Positions 2,600-62,985 of a stretch of DNA of 64,000 nucleotides are shown here, one piece after another. Under the pieces are notes generated by a model. The model was not told where the DNA came from. It ran no database searches and saw nothing but the letters and a program-made list of their open reading frames with translations. This DNA is from Chloroflexota bacterium (lineage in GTDB: Bacteria > Chloroflexota > UBA11872): the NCBI GenBank assembly GCA_022826485.1, contig JAJDUU010000035.1:124001-188000 (forward strand), in the 5' to 3' direction. The number at the start of each line of letters is the position of its first letter. Position 1 is the first letter of the stretch. The translations under genes were made by a program, and so were the position numbers.

Positions 2600-2745
2600 G
2601 TAAGGGCAGGCCTGAGACCTGCCCGACGCCGAGCATCCGGCGCGCTTTCAGGTTCGACCGGACTGGATTCCGGCCCCGTATCGAGTACGGGGCAGGCTCT
2701 TCGCCGGAATGACGGAGGGGTTACGCAGAGGTCTCCGAAGGCGGG
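2600..2745. repeat. Composite palindromic repeat, copy 1
   Basis: Most of the gene-free stretch 2543-2839. A hairpin with arms TTCCGGC (2668-2674) and GCCGGAA (2703-2709) encloses a second palindrome, CCCCGTA/TACGGGG, at 2674-2692. The flank carries a GACGCCGAGCATCCGGCGCGC-like module upstream and a GGAGGGGTTACGCAGAGGTC-like module downstream. Near-identical copies occur at about 21409-21520 and 62870-62960. Nothing in this stretch looks coding. Confidence 0.8.
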
Positions 2746-11639: not shown

Positions 11640-11995
11640 CCCTGGCACGACCCCGAGAGGGCGGGTCCGAGGCACGCTCCGACGCCAAGCATTGGGCGTG
11701 CTTCCCGGTGCGGCCGGACTGGATTCCGGCCTTCGCCGGAATGACGGAGGGGGGCTCTTCGCCGGAATGGCGGAGGGGTTGCGCAAGGGTCTCGGTAGGC
11801 GGGAATCCAGGGCCCCTGGACCGAGTCGCCACACACGACGCCTCGGAGTATGCGGGCAGGGGCGCGTCGCAGACTCGCCCGACGCCAAGCATTGGGTGCG
11901 CTTCCCGGTGCGGCCGGACTGGATTCCGGCCTTCGCCGGAATGACGGACGCAGATTCGGCCGGACTGGATTCCGGCTTTCGCCGGAATGACGGAT
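11640..11995. repeat. Direct-repeat cluster with three REP-like hairpins
   Basis: Fills most of the gene-free stretch 11560-12149. A unit of about 68 bp starting GACGCCAAGCATTGGG occurs at about 11680-11747 and again at 11881-11947. Both copies contain a GGATTCCGG/CCGGAATGACGG hairpin. A third, shorter hairpin copy lies at about 11956-11993. The remainder up to the reductase gene shows only an SD (GGAGG at 12136-12140). Confidence 0.8.
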
Positions 11996-13934: not shown

Positions 13935-14077
13935 GACGGGCCGCCCTCGGTCATTCCGAGCGCACGCGAGGAATCTAAGGGTCGACGACGGGGCGCAACG
14001 CCTGTCAACTCCTGACGGCCCCGCCCTTCCGTCATTCCGGCGGAGGCCGGAATCCAGTCGGGCTTGAGGGCTTGAGG

Positions 14078-14400
14078 GCGTGTCGGCCGGACCTGGACCC
14101 CGGCTTTCGCCGGGGTGACGGAGGGGGCGAATGGCTTGGAGCCTGCCCGTACTTGATACGGGGCCGGAATCCAGGTGTGATCTGGGGCGTGTCGGGCGGA
14201 CCTGGACCCCGGCCTTCGCCGGGGTGACGGATGGGGGCGAATGGCTCTGAGCCTGCCCGTGATTGATACGGGGCCGGAATCCAGGTGTGATCTGGGGCGT
14301 GTCGGGTGGGCCTGGACCCCGGCCTTCGCCGGGGTGACGGAGGGGGCGAATGGCTTGGAGCCTGCCCGCAATTGATACGGGGGGGATCGGGCGTCGTCGG
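14078..14400. repeat. 109-110 bp tandem repeat, about three copies
   Basis: Units begin at 14078, 14187 and 14297 with GCGTGTCGG. Each contains CTGGACCCCGGC/GCCGGGGTGACGG hairpin arms and a CCTGCCCGTA...GATACGGGG palindrome; the third unit is cut short near 14385. The preceding bases 13935-14077 hold a GTCATTCCGAGCG...GAGGAATC repeat (about 13953) and one inverted GTCATTCCGG...CCGGAATCC hairpin (14030-14058). Together these fill the gene-free gap before cysH. Confidence 0.85.
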
Positions 14401-20409: not shown

Positions 20410-21249
20410 ATGTCGGTGGCCGCGGCCTCGCTGTTCATGTGGAGCGGCGCCGTCACCCGGCTCACGGTCCCCGCGTCGCCGGCCGTGGTGACCTTCGGCC
20501 GCCTCGCGGTGGCGGTGGCGGTGGTGCTTCTCCTCACCATGGCGCTGCGCCGCCCGCTGCGACCGGCGCTGAGCCTGCGCCACGCGGTGCTGGGCGTGAC
20601 GCTCTATCTCCACTTCTACCTGTTTACGGTGGCGGCGCAGACTTCCACCGTCGCCCACGCGCTGTCCATCACCTACACGGCCCCGATATTCGTCGCCGCC
20701 GGCTCGGCGCTGCTGCTGCGCGAGCCGCCCTCGCGCCCCCAGCTGGCCGGCGTCGTCGCCGCCATTGTGGGGATTGGCATCCTCGCCGGCTTCAACCCTG
20801 GCGAGCCCGGCGTCTCGTTGCTCGGCGACCTCGCGGCGCTGGGATCGGCGGTCACGCTGGCGGCCTACGTCCTCGCGGGACGCTGGCTGCGCCGCGCCAA
20901 TCCGCTGGAGACGTATGTGACCGGCGTCTACGGCTGGGCCGCCCTTGCGGCCCTGCCCGGCGCCGCGGCCACGCTGGATCTTGCCGCCCTTGGGGACGCC
21001 TGGCTGTGGATCGCATTGCTCGGCATCGGACCGCTGGCGGTTGGACACACCCTCATCAACGCCGCGCTGCGCCGGCTGCCCGCCACCGTGCCCAACGTCA
21101 TCGCGGCGCAGGAAGTGCCGGCGGGAGTCCTCATCGGCATCTGGCTGGTGCAGGAGGTGCCCGGACCGGCGACGCTGATCGGTGGTGTCATTGCGCTGGC
21201 GGGCGTTATCGCGGTGATCACGGGGACGCGGGAGGGCCGCCGCCGCTGA
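20410..21249 (+). CDS. DMT/EamA-family transporter
   Basis: A 279-aa membrane protein with ten hydrophobic segments forming two EamA repeats, typical of drug/metabolite transporters. The motif VAHALSITYTAPIFVAAGSALLLREPPS marks the end of the first repeat, and GHTLINAALRRLPATVPNVI lies in the second. It starts 26 bp after hemB and may be read through from it. The substrate is unknown. Confidence 0.85.
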   Translation: MSVAAASLFMWSGAVTRLTVPASPAVVTFGRLAVAVAVVLLLTMALRRPLRPALSLRHAVLGVTLYLHFYLFTVAAQTSTVAHALSITYTAPIFVAAGSALLLREPPSRPQLAGVVAAIVGIGILAGFNPGEPGVSLLGDLAALGSAVTLAAYVLAGRWLRRANPLETYVTGVYGWAALAALPGAAATLDLAALGDAWLWIALLGIGPLAVGHTLINAALRRLPATVPNVIAAQEVPAGVLIGIWLVQEVPGPATLIGGVIALAGVIAVITGTREGRRR

Positions 21250-21295
21250 CCCCTATCCCAGCCTTTCCCCTGCTAGGAGGCCTTTGAATGAGGAG

Positions 21296-21530
21296 GCAAG
21301 GGCGACGCATGCGTCGCCCCTACGCGTGGGCTGACAGGTTCAGCGTCCGGTGGATTCCCGCCTTCGGAGACCTTTGCATAAGTCCGTAGGAGCGGGCCTT
21401 AGACCCGCCCGACGCCAAGCATCTGGCGCGCTTCCAGGTTTGACCGGACTGGATTCCGGCCCCGTATCGAGTACGGGGCAGGCTCTTCGCCGGAATGACG
21501 GAGGGGTTACGCAGAGGTCTCCCTTCGCCG
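21296..21530. repeat. Perfect palindrome plus composite palindromic repeat, copy 2
   Basis: A 20-bp perfect palindrome GGGCGACGCATGCGTCGCCC lies at 21300-21319, followed by CTAC. The composite repeat then runs from about 21365 to 21520, nearly the same as that at 2600-2745, with the nested CCCCGTA/TACGGGG hairpin. It occupies the gene-free stretch 21250-21692 together with the next repeat entry. Confidence 0.8.
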
Positions 21531-21594
21531 GAATGATGGAGGGGTTTCGCAGGGGTCTCCTGCCAGGGGGAAGGGGCCTAAGGGATTCCGTAAG

Positions 21595-21697
21595 GAAGCT
21601 CTGAATAAATCTGTAGGCCGCGCTTCAATCCCCCCATCCAAACCTTCCCCCCAAGGGGGAAGGGACCGGAAGGAGGCTTAATCAGAGGTTTCCTAAG
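21595..21697. repeat. About 100-bp dispersed repeat, copy A
   Basis: A segment containing TAAATCTGTAGGCCGCGCTT and a TTCCCCCCAAGGGGGAA palindrome is repeated at 30219-30320 with few differences. This copy runs into the stop codon of the histidine kinase gene (21693-21695). Confidence 0.8.
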
Positions 21698-25849: not shown

Positions 25850-26100
25850 GGAGACCTTTGCATAAGTCTGGAGGGGGAGTCTGAGGCCCGCCCGACGTCG
25901 AGCATCCGGCGCGCATCGAGGTTCGACCGGACTGGATTCCGGCTCCCCGCCTTCGCGGGGACAGGCTCCGCAGGAATGACGGAGGGGGCAGGCTCTTCGC
26001 CGGAGTGTCGGAGGGGTTTCGCAGAGGTCTCCGAAGGCGGGAATCTAACGGCCGCTCAACCTGTTACCCCATGAGTAAGGGCCGTTCGCGAACGGCCCCT
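25850..26100. repeat. Composite repeat cluster with second palindrome type
   Basis: The gap between parA and the sigma factor gene holds a composite repeat at about 25854-26045. Its inner hairpin is CTCCCCGCCTTCGCGGGGA instead of the CCCCGTA type. A 20-bp perfect palindrome GGGCCGTTCGCGAACGGCCC follows at 26079-26098 and is again followed by CTAC. No coding signal is seen; 26101-26233 is unremarkable. Confidence 0.75.
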
Positions 26101-30218: not shown

Positions 30219-30430
30219 GAAGCTTCTGAGTAAATCTGTAGGCCGCGCTTCAATCCCCCCATCCTAGCCTTCCCCCCAAGGGGGAAGGGACCGGAAGGAG
30301 GCTTAATTGGAGATTTCCTAGGAAAACTCGGAATCGGTCGTTAGACCGCGCCCCAATCCGTTCTACGGACCCTTCGACAGGCTCAGCGCCTGCCCCGTAC
30401 TAGATACGGGGGCGAACGGATTGGGGCGGC
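30219..30430. repeat. About 100-bp dispersed repeat, copy B, plus hairpin
   Basis: 30219-30320 duplicates 21595-21697, including the TTCCCCCCAAGGGGGAA palindrome. At about 30386-30411 there is a GCCTGCCCCGTA...GATACGGGG hairpin of the nested type. Together they fill the gene-free stretch 30218-30530. Confidence 0.8.
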
Positions 30431-47817: not shown

Positions 47818-47918
47818 GCTCCGTCATTCCGGCGAACGCCGGAATCCAGAACCGGCTCACCGTCGCCGGATCACCACGGCATCGTCATTCCCGCGGAGGC
47901 GGGAATCCAGTCCGGACG
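47818..47918. repeat. Two REP-like hairpins between divergent genes
   Basis: GTCATTCCGGCGAACGCCGG followed by AATCC lies at about 47822-47847. GTCATTCCCGCGGAGGCGGG followed by AATCC lies at about 47884-47910. Both are in the orientation opposite to those at 2.6 and 11.7 kb, in the space between the M16 and zincin genes. Confidence 0.75.
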
Positions 47919-53128: not shown

Positions 53129-53216
53129 AGCAATGTCAACCCGAGGCGATCCGATAAAGGAATGGCATACCGGGTTGGTCCGGTCCCTTCTCCCCTTGTG
53201 GTGACGTTTGCGTAAC

Positions 53217-53370
53217 CCTCCGTCATTCCGGCGAAAGCCGGAATCCAGTCCGGTCGAACCTGGGGTGCCTGGATGCGTGGCAGACGGGCGGTTCGCGAAC
53301 CGCCCCTACATCTTCGTTCAAAGGTCTCCGTGGGGGAGAAGAATAGAGCCTGCCCCGTACTCGATACGGG
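53217..53370. repeat. Repeat cluster: REP hairpin, 20-bp palindrome, nested hairpin
   Basis: In the gap 53129-53424: GTCATTCCGGCGAAAGCCGG followed by AATCC (53222-53246), the perfect palindrome GGGCGGTTCGCGAACCGCCC (53286-53305) followed by CTAC, and a CCTGCCCCGTACTCGATACG hairpin (about 53349-53372). The segment of about 68 bp around the palindrome (53262-53333) reappears inverted at about 62806-62872. Confidence 0.8.
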
Positions 53371-53424
53371 GATGAGGGGTCGGCCCCGGCGAAGGGGACC
53401 GCCGCTGACGATGAGTCACGACTG

Positions 53425-59447: not shown

Positions 59448-59713
59448 GTCATTCGGTAGTTGGTCACCTTGAGTCCGTCATTCCCGCGAAGAGCCTGCCC
59501 CGTACTTGATACGGGGCGGGAATCCATCCCCGTACGGCAACCGGCGAATCGAGGGTACCCGCCGGTGCTGGGTCACCATGCGGCGCTCAGATGTCAGAGT
59601 TGCCCACTACCCGTCATTCCGGCGGAAGCCGGAATCCAGTTTCCCCGAGCCTAACCACCCTTGGAGCAGAGCCTTCCCCGTGCGTGATACGGAGGGCGAC
59701 GCATGCGTCGCCC
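59448..59713. repeat. Repeat cluster inside the restriction locus
   Basis: The gap 59396-59713 between hsdS and the toxin-antitoxin pair. It holds a hairpin GTCATTCCCGCGAAGAGCCT with CCCCGTACTTGATACGGGG (about 59477-59517) and GTCATTCCGGCGGAAGCCGG (59612-59631). The 20-bp palindrome GGGCGACGCATGCGTCGCCC lies at 59694-59713, its last bases touching the hsdS stop codon region. Confidence 0.8.
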
Positions 59714-62749: not shown

Positions 62750-62985
62750 AAGGGCGCCTGGAGGGGCGTCCAGGCTCGGTCGGGACTGGATTCCCGCTTC
62801 CGGAGACCTTTGAATAAAGATGTAGGGGCGCTTCGCGAACCGCCCGTCCGCCACGCACCCAGGCTCCCCCAGGTTCGACCGGACTGGATTCCGGCCCCGT
62901 ATCGAGTACGGGGCAGGCTTTTCGCCGGAATGACGGAGGGGTTACGCAAAGGTCTCCTTCCGCGGGAATGACGGAGGGGGCCGCA
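62750..62985. repeat. Repeat cluster: inverted 68-bp copy and composite repeat copy 3
   Basis: About 62806-62872 is the inverse of 53262-53333, with its palindrome (62826-62845) carrying one mismatch. About 62870-62960 is a near-identical copy of the nested composite repeat at 2.65 and 21.45 kb. The repeats fill the gene-free stretch 62669-62990 together with copy B. Confidence 0.8.

Follow-up and report, generated by a model that had tools for sequence, protein, structure and literature searches.

A 24-nucleotide palindromic unit nested in dispersed repeats of a Chloroflexota genome and patchily spread over bacterial phyla

How does one hairpin come to sit exactly inside another? The window analysed here, 64 kb of DNA (67.6% G+C) from a 3.17-Mb draft Chloroflexota genome, holds composites in which a CCCCGTA..TACGGGG palindrome lies between the arms of a TTCCGGC/GCCGGAA hairpin. 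From these, the original prediction proposed two mobile palindromes, one targeting the loop of the other. Both words are strongly enriched: the window has 18 occurrences of CCCCGTA where 5.1 would be expected and 42 of TTCCGGC where the expectation is 16, and 0 of 100 shuffles reached either count. Over the whole genome we count 317 outer hairpins (GATTCC(S)G..C(S)GGAATGAC), 98 inner sites CCCCGTA..TACGGGG (a palindrome, so that either strand gives the same 98) and about 60 exact copies of the inner unit, which we call X. In Rfam, X has no match; the sole match within the window is a selenocysteine tRNA gene (RF01852, 41781-41874, minus strand).

The outer hairpin and what fills it

Judged by its sequence, the outer hairpin (H1) is a CGTC-tagged REP, of the kind called dRS3 in Neisseria. 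It reads CGTCATTCCGGC-GAAG-GCCGGAATCCAG or, in full on the other strand, CGTC-ATTCCGGC-GAAG-GCCGGAAT-CCA; that is, it has a CGTC tag at one end, an 8-bp stem starting with AT, a 4-nt loop and a CCA tail, and the same tag, 8-bp stem, 4-nt loop and CCA tail define the CGTC-1 REPs, neisserial dRS3 included (Di Nocera et al. 2013, PMC3733652). That survey names no transposase dedicated to CGTC repeats and no such repeats from Chloroflexi, whereas H1 is in Chloroflexota. It had already noted REPs within palindromes in A. variabilis, T. roseum and H. neapolitanus, and nesting as such therefore has precedents, but the arrangement here is the reverse, with a REP hosting the smaller unit.

The three composites at about 2.65, 21.45 and 62.9 kb are all present (2668-2709, 21454-21495 and 62889-62930). 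Each belongs to a minus-strand H1 (CGTCATTCCGGC..GCCGGAATCCAG; 2662..2714, 21448..21500 and 62883..62935) with X in its loop, at 2675..2698 (minus strand; GAGCCTGCCCCGTACTCGATACGG, 24 nt in a register that can slide by one G), 21461-21484 and 62896-62919. A fourth, missed at first, lies on the plus strand at 59476..59526 (X at 59491-59514) in an H1 of the TTCCCGC/GCGGGAA variant (CCCGC/GCGGG). An inner unit does sit in the outer loop at a fixed point, as proposed. The division of the bases has to be redrawn: CAGGCT is part of X, and the last four bases of the composite (CTTC, CTCC, TTTC or GTTC) are H1's own loop, as the empty copies show.

What of the hairpins said to occur alone? The one at 11.7 kb is indeed an empty H1 (11724..11741, unstranded, loop CTTC), and more empty copies lie at 11924-11941, 11970-11987, 14035-14052, 47827-47844, 53226-53243 and 59617-59634. 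The other two are not alone. The palindrome at 30393 sits in a different host, H2 (CCCTTCGACAGGCTCA^GGGCGAACGG; 30370..30419, plus strand, X at 30386-30409), and that at 53353 in an H3-like repeat of the type GGGAGAA..TA^GGATGAGGGG (53332..53379, plus strand, X at 53346-53369). The different filler noted at 25.94 kb is real and occupies the same place, in an H1 whose right arm is mutated (25937..25976, minus strand). This unit, X2 (CCTGTCCCCGCGAAGGCGGGGA, 22 nt), is a second unit that fills this REP loop, less often than X does; it is placed at AG^G and was seen at 25944-25965 of the window and at two other loci (L029 and L030). Tandem 110-nt units at 14123..14382 (plus strand) contain a degenerate X joined to half an H1 (GCCTGCCCGTACTTGATACGGGGCCGGAATCCA).

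In a survey of H1 loops, 78 were empty, 29 held X and 4 held X2, the remainder being concatemers or chance matches; filled outer hairpins are longer than empty ones by exactly 24 nt, or by 22 nt with the second filler. The three composites first noted are embedded in copies of a single longer block of repeat (137 nt, with 93% and 79% likeness) and so are not independent within the window. Genome-wide the picture differs from that of a single duplicated block: the 29 filled H1 copies, taken from sampled loci, fall into at least nine groups with unrelated flanks, which rules such a block out as the carrier of X.

A unit with fixed ends and many hosts

X (GAGCCTGCCCCGTACTYGATACGG, read with GAGCCTG first) is an exact 24-nt unit, a GAGCCTG tag followed by a hairpin of 5-7 bp, in which the GG that belongs to the target completes the last pairs. 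When the flanks of 223 copies were joined and the uninterrupted 36-mer was sought in 1.18 Mb of fetched DNA, excision of exactly 24 nt found a partner for 93 of the 223 at up to 8 mismatches in 36 (52 at up to 4); with either end shifted by 1-6 nt, only 0-12 of the 223 were restored. The copy is 24 nt long in 183 of the 223. Copies are almost always placed at A^GG, with a register ambiguous by one G, and the target logo over the copies gives A 0.84 ^ G 0.92 G 0.96, the scans having in part required the GG 3' of the site. Filled and empty copies of host H3 differ at the preceding base, which is A in 18 of 19 of the former versus 13 of 30 of the latter (Fisher p = 2e-4). When the scan no longer required a final GGGG, the count in the six congeneric genomes (G000-G005, this genome included) rose from 166 to just 187, so that 166 of the 187 copies have it. 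At loci partly chosen for X, 40% of GAGCCTG occurrences precede a perfect hairpin, versus 0-3% for control 7-mers.

The same 24 nt occupy many unrelated repeats at identical boundaries, and the outer REP is just one of the hosts. Others are CCCTTCGACAAGCTCA^GGGCGAACGG, CCCTCTCCC..GGGAGAGGGYTA^GGGTGAGGG, GGGAGA^GGGCTGGGGTGAGGG, GGCGCA^GGTTGCAAACCTGCGCTACC, GGTGGCACA^GGCGTCC..CGCCTGTGCG and, in Xanthomonads, GGGAGAAGGTGCCCGAA^GGGCGGATGAGGG. The idea of one palindrome targeting the loop of another thus holds for the fixed point of nesting and for the filled and empty orthologous sites, but it was drawn too narrowly, as X enters many repeats at A^GG. Most hosts are themselves multicopy, and part of the copy number of X therefore comes from amplification of filled hosts. 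As to the orientation bias along contigs that single-strand transposition would predict, neighbouring copies more than 2 kb apart share an orientation in 43 of 68 pairs (p = 0.04); H1 itself is similar.

The comparison of occupied and empty sites among relatives came out as the original prediction would have it, with two orthologous pairs that differ by a clean 24 nt. At an H1 site, G005 (L230) has the composite and G004 (L229) the plain REP, with 92.5% identity and a single 24-nt internal gap; at an H2 site, X is in G002 (L204) and missing from G004 (L206), again with 92.5% identity and a single 24-nt gap. A third pair, from another family of the class, is probable: a host called H5 is filled in G027 and G031 and empty in G025, with the same flanking genes. 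At the H1 locus X, or a decayed or variant version of it, is present in G000, G001 and G003 as well, so the empty state in G004 could be a precise loss, or it may reflect gene conversion with an unfilled REP as donor. Gain or loss, the 24-nt unit comes or goes cleanly. Larger stretches turn over as well. Four of five sister species lack the intergenic repeat blocks with X of about 445 bp (21248-21692) and 290 bp (53130-53421), and in these species the same genes are 7-12 bp apart (absence at the 21.45-kb locus was judged by BLAST coordinates).

Distribution and kinship

How far does X reach? A 26-mer pattern with 21 fixed bases, scanned over a 257-Gb genome collection, matched at least 118 stretches, where by our own estimate (equal base frequencies) about 0.35 would be expected by chance. 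Among the matches listed are Dehalococcoidia and other Chloroflexota, Pseudoxanthomonas and Lysobacter (Xanthomonadaceae), Syntrophaceae and other Deltaproteobacteria, Nitrospirae, Brocadiaceae, Alphaproteobacteria and Nitrosomonadales; a match in Belliella may be chance. Of the Chloroflexota sampled, 13 of 301 genomes and 3 of 179 genera have the 26-mer. The genera g1, g8 and Pseudoxanthomonas are rich in X; the sister genus g2 has it in 0 of 13 genomes. Presence in many phyla, yet patchy within Chloroflexota, points to horizontal spread. An assembly artefact is unlikely, as X is also present in cultured isolates. No phage or plasmid vector was found (the viral collection gave four matches, of which two share the same flanks, and the plasmids one weak match), nor was the 26-mer found in print in the literature searched.

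The closest kin, by description, are the small dispersed repeats (SDRs) of heterocyst-forming cyanobacteria, reportedly described by Elhai et al. in 2008 as hairpin-forming, dispersed repeats of 21-27 nt, embedded in other repeats, nested and recently mobile; there are said to be eight published families, one of which (SDR5) lies in HIP1, all within one cyanobacterial subgroup. We know of no mobilising gene for them. Compared by description, X is like them in size (24 nt), hairpin, nesting in other repeats and signs of recent mobility, and it differs in sequence, in its target (A^GG) and in its spread over several phyla; that is, it fits the SDR kind, with a target of its own and a range beyond one group. 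With the GTAG REPs and REPINs that are served by RAYT (TnpA-REP), X shares a short tag and a hairpin, high copy number, intergenic position and a supposed single-strand mobility, but it has neither a GTAG nor a CGTC tag beside its stem (the tag is GAGCCTG), which places it outside both REP groups, and its genus (six congeners) has no Y1 transposase, which sets it apart from RAYT-mobilised REPs and REPINs. The Rickettsia palindromic elements (RPE) are likewise short palindromic insertions, some of them in frame in genes; RPE-4 and RPE-6 are CGTC REPs, whereas X differs in its tag and is more widely distributed. MITEs are 70-300 bp long with terminal inverted repeats of 15-30 bp and usually a target duplication; X, with 24 nt and no target duplication, is not one.

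How X might move

X is a discrete unit with fixed ends and a fixed target motif, found in many unrelated hosts, responsible for exact 24-nt differences between orthologues and patchy in its distribution over phyla. What, then, is it? Our preferred reading, to which we give a probability of about 0.6, is that X is mobile but non-autonomous, an element of about 24 nt that would insert at A^GG, without target duplication, in the loops or beside the stems of other dispersed palindromic repeats, CGTC-type REPs among them. Its copying would proceed through a single-stranded hairpin, of DNA or RNA, which an enzyme supplied in trans, other than a Y1 transposase of this genome, would join into the target; palindromic hosts might be favoured for their exposed single-stranded loops, or because insertion there does no harm. 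The size of X, its tag and hairpin, and the lack of a target duplication suggest, by analogy, single-strand processing as in the IS200/IS605 and REP systems, and an RNA intermediate or template switching is possible. No mobilising gene for X was identified, nor was X seen to move. A bolder version, which we put forward tentatively and short of even odds, makes X a hyperparasite of REPs: a 24-nt hairpin spreading between phyla and guided by structure into the loops of other selfish palindromes, independently of a transposase or through RNA. If true, X would be among the smallest mobile elements that spread horizontally.

Could X spread with no transposase at all, if repeats exchanged it at replication through template switching or ectopic gene conversion (hairpin-induced slippage)? 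Hairpins do provoke polymerase switching, the hosts are multicopy, whole repeat blocks turn over between species and the six congeners searched have no Y1 transposase, all of which would suit such a process. We nevertheless regard it as rather unlikely, because fixed ends and an A^GG target, in hosts with little homology beyond 3 nt, are unexpected if homology drives the exchange, and because an identical sequence in distant phyla needs import. A RAYT (TnpA-Y1) transposase, encoded in the genome or recently lost, might be the mover; the original prediction had likened the palindromes to RAYT-moved elements, and X resembles REP/RAYT and IS200/IS605 elements in size, in tag plus hairpin and in leaving no target duplication. 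The other strand of X has CT at the junction, the dinucleotide beside the hairpin at which TnpA-REP cleaves (PMC8266576), and Y1_Tnp matches occur in most genomes of g8, the other X-rich genus. Against this, PF01797 (Y1_Tnp) is absent from all six congeners, those with polymorphic X sites (G002, G004 and G005) included, by a search that was positive in E. coli and four other controls; it was not found in the X-bearing g8 genome G033 either, and X has no GTAG tag. A resident RAYT is rejected on the lack of PF01797, the suggestion of RAYT-moved elements is not supported in this genome and its congeners, and the RAYT account as a whole is improbable.

Somewhat more improbable still is that the composite is a REP with a long structured loop, like some GTAG-3 and GTAG-14 REPs, which spreads as one unit while X itself is immobile. 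Long self-complementary loops are known in Bradyrhizobium and enterobacterial REPs (PMC3733652), and filled H1 copies often have longer flanks in common. This account is already largely refuted by the same 24 nt, with the same ends, in unrelated H2, H3, H5 and Xanthomonad repeats, and the gap in the H1 orthologous pair is of those 24 nt alone. Least probable is an immobile functional motif, a protein-binding site or bidirectional terminator selected at convergent gene ends: X is very uniform and several window copies lie between convergent genes, but its distribution is scattered and patchy, it is precisely present or absent in otherwise conserved loci, and it occurs in the reading frame of a GH3-family gene.

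The movement of REPs and other palindromes of 20-30 nt is an old question, and X offers a case in which the mechanism can be tested, since its ends are exact, its target follows an A^GG rule, its hosts are unrelated, orthologous sites exist both with and without it, and cultured bacteria (Pseudoxanthomonas) carry it. Dispersed repeats, moreover, can be nested mosaics of smaller mobile units common to several phyla.

Two hosts are doubly nested. One (L091) has two X-type copies at different sites of a single CCCTCTCCC/GGGAGAGGG repeat. The other (L254; G031:C22:9800-10300, about 130-215) is a triple nest, a host hairpin GGTAGCGCAGG..TTTGCAACC..TGCGC, of which one arm contains an H2-type unit (CCCTTCGACAGGCTCAGGACGCG) and the other X. 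Long open reading frames that run through X in GC-rich DNA were not counted as genes, with one exception, which has a Pfam match: the GH3-family gene (PF00933, E 3e-70) of the deltaproteobacterium GWC2_42_11 (L094:1540-3243, minus strand), where X is read in frame as ..VPE[EPAPYLIR]GLNRG... The gene also contains another repeat-like stretch (KSPLNLPFTKGGQGG), and it recalls the palindromic elements within Rickettsia proteins.
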